From: a virus
IMG/VR virus record: IMGVR_UViG_3300030450_002882
Location: 1 to 27,425 of that record
Strand: one strand, 5' to 3'
Length of the DNA stretch: 27,425 nucleotides
Part shown: positions 15,799-27,425 of the stretch, one piece after another
How positions within the stretch are numbered: position 1 is the stretch's first letter
Layout of the letters: each line of letters begins with the position of its first letter
The notes under the pieces: model-generated
Database searches by the model: none
The model's input: the letters and a program-made list of their open reading frames with translations, nothing else
What the model was told of the DNA's origin: nothing
Made by a program: the position numbers and the translations under genes

Positions 15799-16128
15799 CT
15801 ATTCGTCGCTTTCCTGTCCTAGAAGTTTTTCTAGAAGCTTCTTTTCGTAGAATTCTGCTTTATATAGATCCTGTATCCCATTTTTAAACGGGTAACGCCA
15901 GCGGTACTTCAAAGAGTTTCCACGCAGGTAACCTATGTATTCTTCTGGGCTTAACATAGCTTCTATCCCTTCAATACATTCAATGCTGCCCTGGTTGTAG
16001 TGGGGCGGGTGCTGTATCTCAGCGTCAGTTCTTTCAACATCTTTATTCAACTCTTTAGCTTCTTTAACAATCACAATTTCATTCCATTCTTCAGGGGTTG
16101 CGTCGTTTATAGTTTTATGTCGGCTCAC
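15799..16128 (-). CDS. DUF3310 protein (T7 gp1.7-related)
   Basis: The 109-residue protein carries the DUF3310 signature: HPPHYNQGSIECIEGIEAML, then EEYIGYLRGNSLKYRWRY and DLYKAEFYEKKL. DUF3310 is the domain of T7 gp1.7, a nucleotide kinase acting on thymidine nucleotides. T7 gp1.7 is longer, so enzyme activity here is uncertain. The N-terminal 35 residues are a variable charged extension. It overlaps the endonuclease I gene by four bases (ATGA), which keeps it with the DNA metabolism genes and supports a role in nucleotide supply. Confidence 0.85.
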   Translation of the reverse strand: MSRHKTINDATPEEWNEIVIVKEAKELNKDVERTDAEIQHPPHYNQGSIECIEGIEAMLSPEEYIGYLRGNSLKYRWRYPFKNGIQDLYKAEFYEKKLLEKLLGQESDE

Positions 16129-16586
16129 AGGTTTTCTTCTCCTTCTTCAAAAGAGTTACTTCTCCATTCTTCAGGCAGTGTTTCTGGCGTAAACCATCTA
16201 AAGTCATTAGCCGTTGCCCACTCACCATGACTACGTTTAGTGCCATCTTTTCTTTTTTTAGTCTGTGGCATTGGTAGCGAAGAGTTTGCAAACAAAAAGA
16301 CAAGTTCAGTATTAGAAGGAAGTGTCTTCTTTATCCAGATATACTTACTGTATTCTGCATGGTCCCAAAATCTTCCTTTAGCCTCCAGGAGGATCTTCTT
16401 GGTACCTATTCTTTTAACAAAGTCTGGATGGTACTTATGCTCAACAACGTAATCTAAAGTCCCTTCGTGGTGTTCCCAGTCTTTAAGGATTGTTTCGTGT
16501 AGTGTTCTTTCAAACGCTGAGTCGTACCCGCCTTTTTGTTTTTGTAACTCTTTAGGTCTTTTATTTCGTCGATACTGCTTACGCAA
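16125..16586 (-). CDS. Endonuclease I, Holliday junction resolvase (T7 gp3-like)
   Basis: The 153-residue protein matches T7 endonuclease I in length and active site. The PD-(D/E)XK residues are visible as Glu26 (in SAFERTL), Asp55 (YHPDF) and Glu68-x-Lys70 (LLEAKG), matching T7 Glu20, Asp55, Glu65 and Lys67. The basic N-terminus (RKQYRRNKRPKELQKQK) would contact DNA. The enzyme cuts branched DNA, resolves recombination and replication intermediates before packaging, and helps break down host DNA. The gene starts right after the stop of the 91-residue gene with no gap and overlaps DUF3310. In T7 the gene precedes primase-helicase; here it lies after the exonuclease, so the order is rearranged. 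Confidence 0.9.
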   Translation of the reverse strand: MRKQYRRNKRPKELQKQKGGYDSAFERTLHETILKDWEHHEGTLDYVVEHKYHPDFVKRIGTKKILLEAKGRFWDHAEYSKYIWIKKTLPSNTELVFLFANSSLPMPQTKKRKDGTKRSHGEWATANDFRWFTPETLPEEWRSNSFEEGEENL

Positions 16587-16862
16587 TTAATTTCTACCTA
16601 CTCTGTCACAGTATACTTTAACATCTTTAACGGTAATAAGATCTATATCCTTGTATTTCATTATTCTTTTAAGGACGTTCTTACACCCTTTAAAACACAT
16701 AACAATGCAACAGGCTCCACCTCTTAGTCCTGCATACTCTGTCTTTTCAATATGTTTATATGTTAACTTGTTAGCTTCTTCATCAGTAAGTCTTTCTTTT
16801 AAAAAAGACAAAGCAAACTCTTTAGCTTTCCTGCTAACCTTTTTAGATACCTTTCCGTTCAA
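16587..16862 (-). CDS. Small basic Cys-containing hypothetical protein (91 residues)
   Basis: The start is TTG at 16862, overlapping the exonuclease stop (TTGA); no in-frame ATG occurs before about residue 54, so TTG is the likely start. The N-terminus is Lys/Arg-rich and helical (KKVSRKAKEFALSFLKERL), and the middle holds four cysteines in GGACCIVMCFKGCKN. The spacing is not a classic zinc-finger pattern, but a metal or redox role is possible. I know no family. Its place between two nucleases suggests a DNA-related accessory function. Confidence 0.6.
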   Translation of the reverse strand: MNGKVSKKVSRKAKEFALSFLKERLTDEEANKLTYKHIEKTEYAGLRGGACCIVMCFKGCKNVLKRIMKYKDIDLITVKDVKVYCDRVGRN

Positions 16863-17707
16863 TGTAAAAAGACCTCTTCTACTCTGGGTTGACTTATTAC
16901 CCTTGTAAAATATTTTAAACCGTTAGAATATTTAAAAGCTTTTAACCCTGTACCATTATTAGAATCAGACCAGCATTCTTTTTTATGTGGGCAGTAAGCA
17001 CACCCTGAAGAAAGTCTTAGATTACCCTTCTTACCTTCAGCAACAGGATCATAACATCGTTCAGGGGGTGTATCATTTTCTAGTTTTTCTTTTAGATTTT
17101 GAATAGTAACAGTAGCATTAGGTTTTACAAGTGGCCCAGGGTTGTACATAGCTAACGCCCCTGTCTCTTTATTGAGAGCAAGAAAGCCGCCATTGCTTGT
17201 CCCTTCTGCTTCTTCATAAGAAGACAACTGCATCATGTAACCAAAAGGATCGTCTTGGTGTAGTGTACCTTCAGAAAACTTTTTAAAAGAAAAACCAGAG
17301 GCAGTCTTTATATCAACAACTCTTCCATTAATCTTACAATCTATATGGCCTTTTAACCCTTCTAACTCTACTTCTTTTTGCTCGTCAGTAACCTCATGCC
17401 CTGCCATTCGTACTAAAGTTAAGATTACTTCTTCTAAAATGTGACCATACAAAAACTTAATAAAGACTTCAGGGGATATTCTTTCTCCACCGGACTCTGT
17501 TCTTTTATCATACCAAAGACGTCTAGCTGGTCTTCCAACATTAGACATCCTCAAGTAAAAGCCTTCTCTTTTTTCAGGGTTAGCCCAGGATTTAATAGCT
17601 TTCTTTATATTATCTCCTAACGTATCTAGGTCTTCTTCAGATATATCAAGAGAACCATCGTTAAGATGATCTAATTTACTATAAATATCTTCGACTATTT
17701 TATGCAT
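16859..17707 (-). CDS. Cas4/RecB-type PD-(D/E)XK exonuclease
   Basis: The 282-residue protein has the RecB-family nuclease motifs in order: His89 and Glu92 (YGHILEEV), Asp123 (GHIDC), Asp132-x-Lys134 (VDIKTAS) and Gln160-x3-Tyr164 (MQLSSY). Four cysteines at the C-terminal side (Cys218, then Cys236-x2-Cys239-x5-Cys245) resemble an iron-sulfur cluster site. The N-terminal cysteine of Cas4 enzymes is missing: the equivalent place reads NVGRPARRLWY. Position after DNA polymerase matches T7 gp6 exonuclease, so it probably replaces gp6 in degrading host DNA, primer removal and recombination. It overlaps its upstream neighbour by eight bases. An RNA or DNA end-processing role is possible; CRISPR adaptation is unlikely without cas1 or cas2. 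Confidence 0.85.
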   Translation of the reverse strand: MHKIVEDIYSKLDHLNDGSLDISEEDLDTLGDNIKKAIKSWANPEKREGFYLRMSNVGRPARRLWYDKRTESGGERISPEVFIKFLYGHILEEVILTLVRMAGHEVTDEQKEVELEGLKGHIDCKINGRVVDIKTASGFSFKKFSEGTLHQDDPFGYMMQLSSYEEAEGTSNGGFLALNKETGALAMYNPGPLVKPNATVTIQNLKEKLENDTPPERCYDPVAEGKKGNLRLSSGCAYCPHKKECWSDSNNGTGLKAFKYSNGLKYFTRVISQPRVEEVFLH

Positions 17708-18026
17708 TTTTCATTTCTCTATGTTTTACAAAGTGAAAGTCACCATATTTTTTTCTTACTAGATAAACTACTCCTAGCTTTTTTTGTATGTCTGTTCTGC
17801 CTGAAGGTCTGTAATTAGTTTTAACATCAACTAAAAGTGTTGTTCCATTTTGAGAAACAATTGAAAGATCAGCAGGTCCAGTGCATTCACAGTTTTTAAA
17901 TACTTTAAAATTGTTTTTAAGTAACCACAGTATAGCTTCGTACTCTGTGCGATCTCCTACATAGCTGCTATCACCCCTGTTGTCAAACAATGGAGAGGGT
18001 GTTTCACTTATTTTAATGAGTTTCAC
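17700..18026 (-). CDS. PD-(D/E)XK endonuclease (PDDEXK_5/Hjc-like)
   Basis: The 108-residue protein has the compact fold signature: Glu28 in GDRTEYEAILWLL, Asp53 in GPADLSI, and Asp67-x-Lys69 in LLVDVKT. This spacing fits the small family related to archaeal Holliday resolvases and intron-associated nucleases. The start is GTG at 18026, overlapping the polymerase end by 14 bases, with GGAG just upstream. It is the first of three PD-(D/E)XK nucleases in this operon. The likely role is cutting branched or host DNA; the substrate cannot be told from sequence. Confidence 0.8.
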   Translation of the reverse strand: MKLIKISETPSPLFDNRGDSSYVGDRTEYEAILWLLKNNFKVFKNCECTGPADLSIVSQNGTTLLVDVKTNYRPSGRTDIQKKLGVVYLVRKKYGDFHFVKHREMKNA

Positions 18027-19785
18027 TCCAATTTCTCCCTATTTTATATTCACCATCTAAAGGGCATCTCATTTTAAAATACTTCCCAGCTTCAATAATA
18101 GACTGGACTCCAAGCTGCCCCGCTTCTTCAGCGCAAGAAGAGTGTGCTTCAATCTGCCACTCATCATGCACATTACCTACTACTGTTGCATCTAAATCTT
18201 TTAGCTTCTCATCGAGTATGACTAATGCTTGCTTCATTACGATAGCCCCTGCACCTTGGAGCAATGTGTTAAGTGCAGAATGTTCGCTAACAATCTGTAG
18301 CTTCCTACCATCTAATCCTTTGAGGCATTGATTTTTAGCGACTGCTCTTGATACGTCGTTTTTAAGAGTTCTAAATGATGGCAAATTATCAAGAAATGAT
18401 TTTCGTAAGATTGAGCCTGTTTTTTTGCTTCCTCCAACCACTGACCCAAGTCGTTCATCTCCTGCTGCGTATAGGAGTGCATAGATGAAAGTCTTTGCCT
18501 GATCTCGTGATTGAAGTCCTGCAAGTTTTTGATTTGTTGTGTGTATGTCTCCAGAGATGATTTCATTTATATAACCTTTATCTCCCATATAATGCGCTAA
18601 CATGCGTAGTTCTAAACCTGAAGCATCTACTCCTACTAGCCTGTAACCAGGGGGTACACACCAGAGCGCTCTAAACTCTTTACCGTAGCGTTTCCTTGTT
18701 GAAGGAAGCTGAGCTTGGTTAGGGTGAGAGTGAGTCATACGCCCTGTACGCGCTCCATTAGAGTTTATATAACCGTGAATTCTAGAATCGTCACGCTCTT
18801 CAACAGCCTCTAGCCACTGTGACAATTGACCTTTTCTCTTTTCAAGAAGAAAATAGTCATTGATTACTTTAGCTTCAGGTATATCTGTTATAGCTGCTAA
18901 GGTTTTTTCATTAACAACTGGTCTTCCGTTAGGCGTATACTCTTTAGGTTTCCACCCAAACGATTGAAGGTACTCTCCTATTTGTTTACGAGAAGATATA
19001 AGTAACTCTATAGAAGTTTTTCTAACAATGTGAAGTGGTACTGAGTGTTCTTTTTCAAAGAAGAGTTTGTATTCTTCATCTGTTAACCTGACACCTTTAC
19101 CATCTTCATCTTCAGCAGTCTTAGCTATATCGCCTGACTTGTTGTAGCGAGGGTATAGTTTCTTTTCTATTATTTTAGGAAGAAAAACTTTCTTAACTTG
19201 ATTTTCAGCATCAACCATTTTTTCTTTTATTTCTGAAAAAAGAATGTCAGCATCTCTAATGTTGAAGTAGAAGCCTTTGTCTTCTTGTTTCTTAACAAGC
19301 CTGGCTACTTCATGTTCAAGCCTTATAGCATCTTTAGAAAAACCTCTTGCTTCTTTCCTTAGCTCATGAAAAACAGCAGTGTTTAATTCAACATCCCTGA
19401 CACAGTAGTCAAGCATCTCACCAGAGTAATTATAAAAGTCTTGGAACTCTATCTTAGGAAATCCAAGCACATCTCCCCAGTTAGCAAGCCTGTGTCCTGA
19501 AGCCCGTACAGGATTGAACAGCCTTGAAAGAACCAGCGTGTCTAACACTTCAACAGACTTAGCAAATTCAGGTTTGTGTAGTACCTTCCTGATAGCAGGT
19601 ATGTCAAAGCCTATGATGTTGTGTCCTACTAAAGAGTCGGCAGAGCTTAGCAGCCGATACCCTTCTTCTAATTGATCAGGTCCATAGGTATAAATAACTT
19701 TAGTCTCTATGTCCTGAGCAACAATACACCATATTTTTGTATAGCTAAGTCCATCAGTTTCTACATCAAAGACAAGTCGTTTCAT
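18013..19785 (-). CDS. DNA polymerase A (T7-like, with 3'-5' exonuclease)
   Basis: From ATG 19785 the protein has 590 residues; this start is one base after the primase-helicase stop, and the frame extends ten further codons upstream. The proofreading domain has Asp7/Glu9 (FDVETDG), Asp61 (HNIIGFD) and Tyr127-x3-Asp131. The polymerase domain has TGR (347-349), motif A Asp387/Glu392 (VDASGLELR), motif B Lys431-x3-Tyr435-x3-Tyr439 (AKTFIYALLY) and motif C His540-Asp541-Glu542 (VHDEW). Tyr435 corresponds to E. coli Phe762 and T7 Tyr526, typical of lytic phages. T7 pol has 704 residues; the region where T7 carries its thioredoxin-binding insertion is present but shorter here (about 205-265). Motif B has Ala436 and Ala440 where T7 has Gly. 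Confidence 0.95.
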   Translation of the reverse strand: MKRLVFDVETDGLSYTKIWCIVAQDIETKVIYTYGPDQLEEGYRLLSSADSLVGHNIIGFDIPAIRKVLHKPEFAKSVEVLDTLVLSRLFNPVRASGHRLANWGDVLGFPKIEFQDFYNYSGEMLDYCVRDVELNTAVFHELRKEARGFSKDAIRLEHEVARLVKKQEDKGFYFNIRDADILFSEIKEKMVDAENQVKKVFLPKIIEKKLYPRYNKSGDIAKTAEDEDGKGVRLTDEEYKLFFEKEHSVPLHIVRKTSIELLISSRKQIGEYLQSFGWKPKEYTPNGRPVVNEKTLAAITDIPEAKVINDYFLLEKRKGQLSQWLEAVEERDDSRIHGYINSNGARTGRMTHSHPNQAQLPSTRKRYGKEFRALWCVPPGYRLVGVDASGLELRMLAHYMGDKGYINEIISGDIHTTNQKLAGLQSRDQAKTFIYALLYAAGDERLGSVVGGSKKTGSILRKSFLDNLPSFRTLKNDVSRAVAKNQCLKGLDGRKLQIVSEHSALNTLLQGAGAIVMKQALVILDEKLKDLDATVVGNVHDEWQIEAHSSCAEEAGQLGVQSIIEAGKYFKMRCPLDGEYKIGRNWSETH

Positions 19786-19786
19786 T

Positions 19787-21487
19787 TTAATCAAACACCA
19801 TAGATGCATCTTCATCTTCTAACGGTTTATCTTCCAGGTCACCCAGGTCAAGCTCGTTGAGTCTTCCTGTAGCATGATCATATACAAGGTGTGTCGCTAC
19901 TCCTACATCACCTGTATACCTGCTCTTGAGTACCCTGATACGTGTTGTAGCAGCCTCTATAGGATCATCAGACTGTTGATTTCGCTCTAAAGTTACTACG
20001 CAATCACTTAGCTGCGCTATGCTTTGTGATCCCCTGAGATGGCTTAGAGAAGTTTCAGCTCCATTTTCATGACCCTTGTTACCGTCTATCCTTCTTAGGT
20101 GACAAACCAGTATCAAGCCTACCCCTGTCTGCTCTACTAGGGTTCTTAGCCTATGCATAATAGAGTCTATAGATCTACGCTCATCGCCTTCAACGGTTTG
20201 AGAGACAAGCATATGTAAGTGGTCTACAACAACCCATTTACATTCACATCCTACAATCATGAAGCGTAACTTAGTAAATATGGACTCAATATCATTGGTG
20301 CCAAAATGGGCATGTATCCATACACGGTTATGATTGTCACCGTGATACAGGATATTGAAGAACTCATCTAATTCTTCTTCAGTGTACTGCTCTCTAATCC
20401 TGTCAATATGCAGCTTATTGTTAGCTTCTATAGAGATAATTCCATCTACGGTCCTGTTAAAGGATTCTTCTAAAGCAACAATACCTATGTTGTCATCTGT
20501 AGATTTTAGTAGCCAGTGTTCTAACTCTCTAGTGACTGAAGACTTACCTAGCCCTGTCCCGCCAGCTAAAGTAATAAGTTCTCCCTGTCGGATGCCTTCA
20601 AGCTTCGCCGTTAAACCTTCCCACGGATAAGGTATTGAGGGTTTCTTTTCACGGTTCTTGTAAGCTTCTCTATTCTCAGAAACAGACAACACGCCACTAG
20701 GTGTATATGTCTTCGCTGCCCACCAAGCTTCTGTAAAATTCTTCTGTTGGTTAGCAACAAGCATCTCATTAACATCCTTGAAGCCTTCAGGCAGAGACAT
20801 AATCTTAGCCTTTCCAGGGTATAACAATCTTGCAACTCGTGTAGCTGCCTTTAACCCTGGTTCATCCATGTCAAAACAAATAACAACATTATCAAAAGAC
20901 TCAAGGTACTCTAGATTATCTTTTACATCCCTGTCAGCACTCTGCGCTCCTGAACTGATAGATATTACAGGCCACTTACTGCCAAGTATTTGGTAGGCAG
21001 ACATAGCATCTACCTCACCTTCGCAAAGGGTTATAAATTTACCACCACTTGAGAATAGCTGCTGCCCAAACAATCCTGCCTGACCTTTTAAGCCTGACCA
21101 AAAGAAAGATTTAGGGCTAACAACTCTTGTCTTGGTAGCAACTATCTCGTTGTTGCCATAGTAGGGGATAGAATACTTAACAATGTTTTCTTTAGTACCG
21201 TCGAACTCTGTCTGACATTTAACTCCGTATTTTTTTACAGTGTCTAACACCAGTCCACGATTTAAAATAGGCATATAACTAAACAAAGCTTCACTTTCTA
21301 CTATAGAAACAGGTTCCCTGCTTTCAATAACACTCAAAGTCGTCCCCTCTGTTTTCTTTACTTGGTAGTCTTTACTGCTGAGATATTCTCCGCAAGCAAA
21401 ACAGTATGCACTCCCATTTTCGTTCTCGGAAAGTGCATCACTGCTATCGCATGACGGACAATGTAGGTGAGTTCGTACAAAACCCAT
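19787..21487 (-). CDS. Bifunctional primase-helicase (T7 gp4-like)
   Basis: The protein has 566 residues, the same length as T7 gp4A. In order it has a zinc-binding domain (Cys10-x2-Cys13, Cys29-x2-Cys32), a TOPRIM primase core (Glu156-x-Glu158-x-Asp160, then Asp206-x-Asp208 in FDMDEPG), a linker, and a RecA-type helicase with Walker A (GGTGLGKSS, Lys315) and Walker B (WVVVDHLHML). The helicase end has SHLRGSQSIAQLSD. The C-terminal tail is acidic and ends SMVFD, like the T7 tail that docks the polymerase. It unwinds DNA and lays primers for the polymerase encoded one base downstream. A ribosome-binding site (GAGGAC) precedes ATG 21487. Confidence 0.95.
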   Translation of the reverse strand: MGFVRTHLHCPSCDSSDALSENENGSAYCFACGEYLSSKDYQVKKTEGTTLSVIESREPVSIVESEALFSYMPILNRGLVLDTVKKYGVKCQTEFDGTKENIVKYSIPYYGNNEIVATKTRVVSPKSFFWSGLKGQAGLFGQQLFSSGGKFITLCEGEVDAMSAYQILGSKWPVISISSGAQSADRDVKDNLEYLESFDNVVICFDMDEPGLKAATRVARLLYPGKAKIMSLPEGFKDVNEMLVANQQKNFTEAWWAAKTYTPSGVLSVSENREAYKNREKKPSIPYPWEGLTAKLEGIRQGELITLAGGTGLGKSSVTRELEHWLLKSTDDNIGIVALEESFNRTVDGIISIEANNKLHIDRIREQYTEEELDEFFNILYHGDNHNRVWIHAHFGTNDIESIFTKLRFMIVGCECKWVVVDHLHMLVSQTVEGDERRSIDSIMHRLRTLVEQTGVGLILVCHLRRIDGNKGHENGAETSLSHLRGSQSIAQLSDCVVTLERNQQSDDPIEAATTRIRVLKSRYTGDVGVATHLVYDHATGRLNELDLGDLEDKPLEDEDASMVFD

Positions 21488-24073: not shown

Positions 24074-24493
24074 CTACTTAAAATATCCGTCAGCGACTTG
24101 TAAGCAAGTGAGTCCATTATTCCTCCACATTTCAACAACTTCTTGTCTGTCATCAAACACGTACTGCACATTGAACTCCTCTTTAATGTCTTCGTAAATC
24201 CTGGCCTTGACCACAACATCAGTGTCATCAGAGTCAACAGGTTTAGAGTAGCAACGGTCAAACGGTATTTGATAGTCAGATAGCCATTGGGTTGTAAGTG
24301 ATTCAAAGCGACCATCCCTGCACGTAACTATCAACAAGGCGTAGCCCATCTTATACAGCGTACCAACCAATCGAACAATAGGTTTATTAGGGGCATCGTT
24401 ACCTACTTTATGCCACTCATACGGTCCTCTGTTGCGACGTAACGCTATTGTTCCATCAACATCAACGATTATTGCATCTGGTTTTATAGTCAT
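24074..24493 (-). CDS. HAD-family polynucleotide 3'-phosphatase (PNKP phosphatase domain)
   Basis: The 139-residue protein is a HAD phosphatase resembling the C-terminal domain of T4 polynucleotide kinase. Motif I is Asp11-x-Asp13 (VDVDGT), motif II Thr57-x-Arg59 (TCRDGR), motif III Lys96 (VVVKARIY) and motif IV Asp114-Asp115 (FDDRQEVVEMW). The closing GLTCLQVADGYF is also typical. It would remove 3'-phosphates from nicked nucleic acid so that ends can be ligated or extended. The kinase domain found in T4 Pnkp is absent and no kinase or ligase lies in this window. The gene starts two bases after the stop of its upstream neighbour. Confidence 0.88.
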   Translation of the reverse strand: MTIKPDAIIVDVDGTIALRRNRGPYEWHKVGNDAPNKPIVRLVGTLYKMGYALLIVTCRDGRFESLTTQWLSDYQIPFDRCYSKPVDSDDTDVVVKARIYEDIKEEFNVQYVFDDRQEVVEMWRNNGLTCLQVADGYFK

Positions 24494-26873: not shown

Positions 26874-27425
26874 TTAAGCTACGTTATTTAGTTTCATTAG
26901 TTTGTACTGCTTATTAATACTTCTACCATGTGCAAGATAAGCAACGACTAACACATTCTTATCCCAACATGATCGACAGGGACCACACTTACCGCCTCTA
27001 TCGCTTGCCTCGCATACTGACATCTTAGGAGTAGCATCCTCTGCATACTGCACAATGGTGCTGGTGTTTCTACCTTTGATGATTCCACCAGTAATACTGT
27101 CGCTAGAAAACCTAACAACGACATTGGGTAATGCATTCATCTTCTTGAAAATAGAAGAGAACTTTGGAAACTTATACGATCTAGTAGGCAGCCAATGGCT
27201 ACACCAAGGTGTACGTTGCATGACCTGATAGATCTTGTTTGCAAGTGAGACAGAATAAACATCACCACTATCAAACCATCTGAAATATCTAGAGTTATCT
27301 AGTTCCTGTACCATCTCATCTACCCATGCATCACGCTGCCAGTCGTGCTTATTGTGATCTCTAACCGCCTTAACATTCGGCATGTTGTACATCCCATCTG
27401 CTGCGTAGCACCCTGTACAGGCGGG
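26874..27425 (-). CDS. Gp88-family phage protein (N-terminus beyond the window)
   Basis: The frame is open to the window edge: upstream of the internal Met at 27392 it continues with PACTGCYAADGMYNMPNVKA, so the true start is outside the window. The visible 183 residues contain the pattern I associate with the phage gene-product-88 family: a CxxCYA cysteine motif, then RWFDSGDVYS, TPWCSHWLPTRSYK, LPNVVVRFSSDS, and a second cysteine cluster, CGPCRSCW. The family function is not established; the cysteines suggest a metal or iron-sulfur centre. Its stop codon forms part of the small hairpin that holds the ribosome-binding site of the zinc-ribbon gene. Confidence 0.75.
   Translation of the reverse strand, partial: PACTGCYAADGMYNMPNVKAVRDHNKHDWQRDAWVDEMVQELDNSRYFRWFDSGDVYSVSLANKIYQVMQRTPWCSHWLPTRSYKFPKFSSIFKKMNALPNVVVRFSSDSITGGIIKGRNTSTIVQYAEDATPKMSVCEASDRGGKCGPCRSCWDKNVLVVAYLAHGRSINKQYKLMKLNNVA

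Follow-up and report, generated by a model that had tools for sequence, protein, structure and literature searches.

The viral record IMGVR_UViG_3300030450_002882 (IMG/VR; positions 1 to 27,425, the whole 27,425-nucleotide (nt) stretch being referred to here as the window) is from a marine phage and contains, between a family A DNA polymerase gene and an exonuclease gene, a small gene encoding a 108-amino acid (aa) protein of the PD-(D/E)XK nuclease superfamily, named PDDEXK-A here. In related phages the position between these two genes (the slot) is refilled by nucleases of unrelated kinds. The small gene is thus more likely a mobile gene of the homing type than one for a second recombination enzyme. 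Since the classes of nuclease in the slot are known from homing and relatives of the slot GIY-YIG genes lie near another polymerase, the 108-aa protein is interpreted as the present occupant of a homing-type slot; there is an even chance that it is a free-standing homing-type nuclease, presumably able to cleave DNA, at a polymerase-linked exchange site. The broader proposal is more tentative: PDDEXK-A may be a free-standing PD-(D/E)XK family of phage homing nucleases that competes with GIY-YIG, HNH and Endo VII enzymes for one landing pad with a polymerase-supplied start codon, a pad that would be obligatorily occupied in one marine phage clade.

Occupants of the polymerase-exonuclease slot

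The first set of loci was taken from the best 80 of at least 597 viral contigs by exonuclease similarity. Both the polymerase and the exonuclease gene are present in 72 of these (the set shrinks to 49 contigs once near copies are removed), and in these contigs and the window the slot always holds at least one nuclease-family gene (73/73). The occupants are PDDEXK-A alone (28 contigs), GIY-YIG alone (17), Endo VII (11), PDDEXK-B plus GIY-YIG (4), HNH (4), PDDEXK-C (3) and five other combinations found once each, with PDDEXK-A in the window; some contigs hold two slot nucleases. Seven sequence families are represented. HNH and Endo VII nucleases are related to each other, and the families are therefore counted as three superfamilies (PD-(D/E)XK, GIY-YIG and HNH/Endo VII). 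Domain searches with one or two representatives per family identified T5orf172/GIY-YIG (PF10544, E 1.9e-8), Endonuclease_7 (E 8.3e-16), HNH (phrog_3322, E 1.5e-31) and HNH_3 (E 4.6e-6); PDDEXK-B and PDDEXK-C were called nucleases from motif reading alone, with no library match that says nuclease. Imperfect occupants also occur: the GIY-YIG gene of one contig (L027) is in two pieces, and that of another (L015) matches 0.62 of the profile.

Because the family profiles of the first set were built from its own slot open reading frames (ORFs), a second set serves as an independent check. It was drawn by another exonuclease and comprises 78 new loci, with one contig shared with the first set (L225 = L082). 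A slot nuclease is present in 71/71, and 65 of the 71 fall in known families; the other six have one ORF each, which form a single cluster whose tested member is HNH (phrog_3106, E 3.2e-15). A set drawn by the SIO1 exonuclease, which includes contigs already seen (L366 = L032, L368 = L023), has a slot nuclease in merely 4 of 70 contigs, and the absence in the other 66 led to rejection of the idea that a slot nuclease is universal among relatives.

In 17 cyanopodoviruses, which have a T7-type exonuclease, the slot holds PDDEXK-A in three (P-SSP7, P60 and Syn5), Endo VII in two, HNH in two, an ORF in NATL2A-133 and no such gene in nine. The NATL2A-133 ORF was considered as a LAGLIDADG nuclease and set aside, the match being weak (E 0.002, below cut-off); PHROGs labels the ORF HNH (phrog_5046), and none of the seven slot-family profiles matches it. 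The pelagiphages HTVC031P and HTVC109P have a PDDEXK-C family gene in the slot, and HTVC115P and HTVC104P have no nuclease gene there. In HTVC115P the slot is empty and an ORF of the PDDEXK-C family (L084, 2-289) lies about 3 kb from the polymerase on its upstream side, so this family also occurs outside the slot. In roseophages CRP-804 and CRP-403 the slot is occupied by small proteins that contain Cys and match no nuclease (L219, 3554-3769; L221, 3551-3745). A distant PDDEXK-A homologue, gp40 of the pelagiphage HTVC106P (L086, 4950-5321), follows a 2784-nt hypothetical-protein gene, with no recognised polymerase-exonuclease pair. Relatives of the slot GIY-YIG genes were found by similarity in 31 contigs; they occupy the slot ahead of a T7-type exonuclease or, in 10 of the 31 contigs (L189-L191, L193, L194, L200, L203, L205, L210, L211), lie upstream of the polymerase of another phage group, adjacent or within about 1.2 kb.

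Exchange between backbones

The identity comparison covered 143 contigs, many of them chosen by PDDEXK-A similarity and seven of them repeats, leaving 136 distinct contigs. The exonucleases of L064 and L053 are 99.3% identical, yet the slot holds different folds (PDDEXK-A and HNH, respectively), and further different-fold pairs occur at exonuclease identities of 97.4% (L022/L018), 96.2% (L057/L071) and 95.8% (L009/L010). Between L014 and L026 the difference is 3% for the exonuclease, 1% for the polymerase and 48% for PDDEXK-A. On the exonuclease tree (49 contigs) the occupant label changes at least 17 times and on the polymerase tree (41 contigs) at least 14 times, where the minimum is 4; the means for shuffled labels are 24.0 and 20.3, respectively. 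The Pearson correlation of PDDEXK-A distance with exonuclease distance is 0.19 and with polymerase distance 0.39 (48 contigs). The corresponding values are 0.78 and 0.82 for orf91 (44 contigs), a downstream gene of similar length, and 0.82 and 0.79 for endonuclease I (43 contigs); for 95-column segments of the exonuclease they are 0.74-0.89. Among 17 contigs selected by their exonuclease, PDDEXK-A gives 0.38 and 0.49, orf91 against exonuclease 0.83 and exonuclease against polymerase 0.97. Endo VII (0.13 and 0.15) and PDDEXK-B (0.15 and 0.26), with nine contigs each, behave like PDDEXK-A. As judged from these sequence comparisons, PDDEXK-A is swapped among related genomes while its site stays fixed, and independently of its flanks, the rank correlation with the polymerase (see below) excepted.

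In 21 of the 136 contigs (L079, L081-L083, L014, L097 and others) the slot begins with PDDEXK-B (phrog_18407), always with another slot nuclease after it; PDDEXK-B may be a separate family.

Over the first 200 nt of the exonuclease gene the median identity drop is 3.3 points in pairs with different occupants (n=11) versus -0.2 in pairs with the same occupant (n=21; one-sided P 0.02); on the polymerase side the test gives P 0.11 (11 vs 21 pairs). The fall in identity at the exonuclease start may be a modest sign of co-conversion.

A common predicted start site in the polymerase tail

The polymerase ends in W-S-E-T-H-stop in 100 of the 136 distinct contigs and in close variants of it in the rest. 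In the adjacent frame the codons of this tail commonly contain a GTG or ATG, with Lys-His or a similar pair coming next. The open frame of the first slot nuclease overlaps the polymerase in 102 of the 136 contigs, is in the same frame in 95 and has a start codon exactly there in 80. By family, a start codon lies at the shared position in 39/44 PDDEXK-A, 18/20 PDDEXK-B, 10/19 GIY-YIG, 5/5 HNH, 5/10 Endo VII, 3/3 PDDEXK-C and 0/1 HNH_3 genes. This shared position suggests that unrelated nucleases often borrow the same putative start, the polymerase-tail codon often being the common predicted start of slot genes.

Such a pad could be filled during co-infection with a related phage that has another occupant. 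The nuclease would cut the rival's polymerase-exonuclease junction, and recombinational repair through the polymerase and exonuclease genes on either side would copy the cassette in, along with some flanking DNA. This cut-and-copy process would be intronless homing, or marker exclusion, and the Cas4-type exonuclease and endonuclease I, as ordinary phage recombination enzymes, would serve the repair.

Family and fold of the 108-aa nuclease

In the alignment, E28, D53, D67 and K69 are kept in all 80 unique homologous PDDEXK-A ORFs, and Q81 is kept in 77 of them (the exceptions are the proteins of P-SSP7, P60 and Syn5). The AlphaFold model of the 108-aa protein has an alpha-beta-beta-beta-alpha-beta core (mean predicted local distance difference test score 77, residues 1-17 of low confidence). 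With conserved acidic residues and a Lys on the expected core, alignment and model assign the ORF to the PD-(D/E)XK superfamily. The initial annotation had called it Hjc/PDDEXK_5-like; a weak but real likeness of profile and fold bears this out, but all scores lie under curated cut-offs. The window's protein has zero matches in Pfam, Hjc (PF01870) and PDDEXK_5 (PF11645) included, and a relative (L036) scores 16.1 bits against a cut-off of 21.1 for Hjc and 14.1 against 26.1 for PDDEXK_5. The same relative matches NCBIfam PRK14681 (E 2.4e-8) and YraN models, all below curated cut-offs, and the window's protein reaches merely E 0.034 and 0.086 in NCBIfam. A single-sequence search of the protein against PDB sequences gave no match; the profile of the PDDEXK-A alignment found Hjc chains (E 0.0046-0.055), UPF0102 and, at E 0.24, I-Ssp6803I. 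In structural comparison the model scores highest with I-Ssp6803I (PDB 2ost; Z 9.1, root-mean-square deviation 2.5 over 86 residues, 22% identity), with which the nuclease domains of SPARDA (Z 8.7) and the Hjc structure 1gef (Z 8.6) are tied. Foldseek ranks a SPARDA domain first (E 3.4e-3) and I-Ssp6803I second (E 3.8e-3). A scan of bacterial genomes for homologues returned two contigs of metagenome-assembled genomes only, both with the same phage operon; this single scan thus gave no cellular family.

Weighing the explanations

Several observations weigh against homing. The clade of the window has no empty slot (73/73 and 71/71) and no shortened copy is present among 33 PDDEXK-A genes, whereas empty sites and dead copies would be expected of a purely selfish gene. 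In all 78 contigs found by PDDEXK-A similarity the neighbours fit this slot (exonuclease directly downstream in 73, contig end in 4, another exonuclease in L164), so that these contigs show no sign of the gene moving from site to site. An additional DNA-binding domain is lacking in the 108-aa protein, and I-Ssp6803I, SPARDA and Hjc are structurally tied, with the SPARDA domain at the top in Foldseek. Occupant labels are more clustered on the trees than shuffled labels, which suggests some vertical inheritance. Slot GIY-YIG genes track the exonuclease and polymerase at 0.66 and 0.71 (15 contigs), DUF3310, an ordinary neighbour, tracks them at just 0.48 and 0.55 (30 contigs), and the rank correlation with the polymerase is equal for PDDEXK-A and orf91 (0.395). 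Collaborative homing with a group I intron was rejected, since no Rfam match was found in 14 sources (138,664 bases). Complete occupancy and the lack of shortened copies, unexpected for a purely selfish gene, leave room for a domesticated function, and homing and domestication are not exclusive. A domesticated nuclease is a possible though less probable explanation, in which the replication module needs one cutting activity at this point (for example, branch removal or genome-end processing), unrelated folds supply it interchangeably and the swaps are ordinary recombination plus selection. Complete occupancy fits such a need, as do the catalytic residues intact in every PDDEXK-A protein and the overlaps with both neighbours, which suggest coupled expression, and the HNH nuclease of HK97 is cited in PMC10448857 as an example of a homing-like gene that serves the phage. 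However, the slot gene is missing in 9/17 cyanopodoviruses, in HTVC115P and HTVC104P and in 66/70 SIO1-type contigs and is thus not generally needed, and some contigs have two slot nucleases.

The initial annotation had proposed a second resolvase or an anti-host nuclease. Neither is favoured here, as endonuclease I is kept alongside and both the exchange behaviour and the slot-mates look homing-type. That the protein is an Hjc-type Holliday junction resolvase, additional to endonuclease I, is improbable even with Hjc chains among the profile and fold matches and with Endo VII, itself a resolvase fold, as an alternative occupant of the slot: endonuclease I is already present in 64/65 PDDEXK-A contigs that extend 1500 nt or more beyond the exonuclease and in 6/8 Endo VII and 16/16 GIY-YIG contigs with room. 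Furthermore, the DHCH motif of the slot Endo VII proteins is C-terminal (at 0.68-0.72 of the length in 9 ORFs), a placement associated in PMC6083498 with the endonuclease clade and not the resolvase clade. More improbable still is an anti-host or counter-defence nuclease that degrades host DNA or a plasmid. The protein is a small nuclease and a SPARDA effector nuclease domain is among its tied structural matches, but it has no PADLOC match at E 0.1, its gene lies within a replication operon in the contigs found by similarity, and exchange from backbone to backbone would be left unexplained. The homing-type slot gene described above remains the preferred reading.

The exonuclease, orf91 and endonuclease I

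The match of the 282-aa exonuclease to phrog_1990 ('Cas4-domain exonuclease') covers residues 19-269. D123, D132, K134, Q160, C236, C239 and C245 are invariant in 119/119 unique sequences, and C218 is kept in 118. The protein's sequence alone has no match in PDB and its profile irrelevant matches only; its model, of low confidence past residue 240, matches the Cas4 protein SSO0001 (Foldseek E 6e-7), MGME1, LHK-exo and lambda exonuclease (Z 10.1-10.9). Profile and conserved residues identify it as a Cas4-domain phage exonuclease that has a Cas4/RecB active site with a Cys cluster and putative iron-sulphur binding. The T7-type exonuclease profile finds none in the window (best E 0.15), and relatives with a T7-type exonuclease hold it at this place, in the order DNA polymerase, slot gene, T7 exonuclease, endonuclease I (e.g., L204, L206 and L212); in phages of other lineages, too, a T7-type exonuclease stands here. 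The proposal of the initial annotation that the middle nuclease is a Cas4/RecB-type enzyme that replaces T7 gp6 is thus well supported as a replacement by position, presumably with a corresponding function. The exonuclease is 52% identical to that of HTVC115P and 45-47% identical to those of SIO1, P12053L and ICBM1; it is a member of the phrog_1990 exonucleases (SIO1, P12053L and relatives) and differs from them in nothing notable. In L164 (2498-3277) an exonuclease of another family (phrog_298, E 1.2e-13) stands beside PDDEXK-A in place of the Cas4-type enzyme, so the exonuclease itself is also exchangeable.

Endonuclease I matches PF05367 with 29.7 bits (E 5.8e-7, cut-off 29.1) and phrog_945 with E 7e-33. 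Its residues E26, D55, E68 and K70 (E, D, E-x-K), which presumably correspond to the T7 residues, are kept in 102/102. The profile match and catalytic residues place this 153-aa protein in the T7 endonuclease I family. In the PDDEXK-A and exonuclease alignments, too, the core catalytic residues are intact in all aligned homologues, and the nuclease assignments of the initial annotation were not refuted by any loss of active sites. The orf91 cluster comprises 61 ORFs at the exonuclease-endonuclease I junction of relatives, and orf91 is a candidate partner of either enzyme. By inspection, no nuclease cluster was found in the exonuclease-endonuclease I interval (102 ORFs in four clusters).

Layout of the locus and other genes of the window

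The gene order on the minus strand is primase-helicase, DNA polymerase, 108-aa nuclease, exonuclease, orf91, endonuclease I and DUF3310 (Table 1). All three PD-(D/E)XK-type nucleases that had been predicted downstream of the polymerase are present as ORFs at the predicted positions. Their description as one overlapping run holds for the polymerase, nuclease and exonuclease genes (the latter two overlap by 8 nt) but not beyond: orf91, which the initial annotation lacks and which overlaps the exonuclease by 4 nt, separates it from endonuclease I, and the latter abuts orf91 with zero overlap. The order polymerase, exonuclease, endonuclease I is repeated in most fetched contigs of sufficient length, and the three-gene run is therefore no chance arrangement.

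Table 1. Features of the polymerase-exonuclease region of the window
Feature	Position	Strand	Evidence	Remark
Family A DNA polymerase	18013..19815	-	PF00476, E 3.1e-47	Upstream border of the slot
108-aa PD-(D/E)XK nuclease (PDDEXK-A)	17700..18026	-	ORF, alignment, fold model	Occupant of the polymerase-exonuclease slot
14-nt polymerase/nuclease overlap	18013..18026	-	GTG start of the nuclease within the codons of the polymerase terminal W-S-E-T-H-stop	Common predicted start site of unrelated slot genes
282-aa Cas4/lambda-exo-type exonuclease, C-terminal Cys cluster	16859..17707	-	phrog_1990, E 4.6e-50	
orf91, 91-aa conserved protein, function unknown	16587..16862	-	phrog_37981, E 3.9e-8	
T7-type endonuclease I (Holliday junction resolvase family), 153 aa	16125..16586	-	PF05367, phrog_945	TTG start as listed
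DUF3310 protein	15799..16128	-	PF11753, E 9.6e-17	Next gene after endonuclease I

Elsewhere in the window, the minus strand encodes a 139-aa protein with a polynucleotide kinase 3'-phosphatase domain (24074-24493; HAD_PNKP, E 1.3e-39), an ORF that apparently lacks a kinase domain, and a 172-aa protein that matches 'Gene product 88' (26874-27392; PF17338, E 2.8e-24).

Comparison with known systems

The slot offers a natural experiment on selfish versus domesticated homing genes, and PDDEXK-A, as a candidate PD-(D/E)XK homing family carried by phages, is open to test. For annotation, genes labelled 'Hjc-like' or 'Endo VII' at this position should not be taken as resolvases by default.

The homing endonuclease I-Ssp6803I, the top structural match by Z, is intron-encoded and comes from a cyanobacterium. 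It is likewise a PD-(D/E)XK enzyme, whereas the 108-aa protein is free-standing, phage-borne and shorter. Archaeal Hjc and UPF0102/YraN share with the 108-aa protein the same core and the same order of active-site residues, a likeness of sequence and model with matches under curated cut-offs.

Homing genes near DNA polymerase genes are described in Barth et al. 2023 (PMC10448857) and in 'Mobile DNA elements in T4' (PMC2988022), which place T5orf172/GIY-YIG and HNH homing genes close to those for terminase, ribonucleotide reductase and polymerase. F-CphI is a homing endonuclease with an Endo VII motif (PMC6083498), and in a T7-like cyanophage the polymerase carries an intron-borne HNH enzyme (PMC3428280). 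The portions of the open-access literature covered gave no description of this slot or of a free-standing PD-(D/E)XK phage homing family. The free-standing phage homing genes in the excerpts of PMC10448857 and PMC2988022 resemble the slot genes in that several nuclease classes stand beside an essential replication gene and are exchanged between relatives. The clade of the window differs in that one slot is always filled and in that a PD-(D/E)XK family is included, which is not among the free-standing phage homing genes listed in those excerpts. Thus, homing genes beside a polymerase are of a known kind, and the new element is a fixed slot with repeated replacement of the fold, near-identical backbones and complete occupancy.

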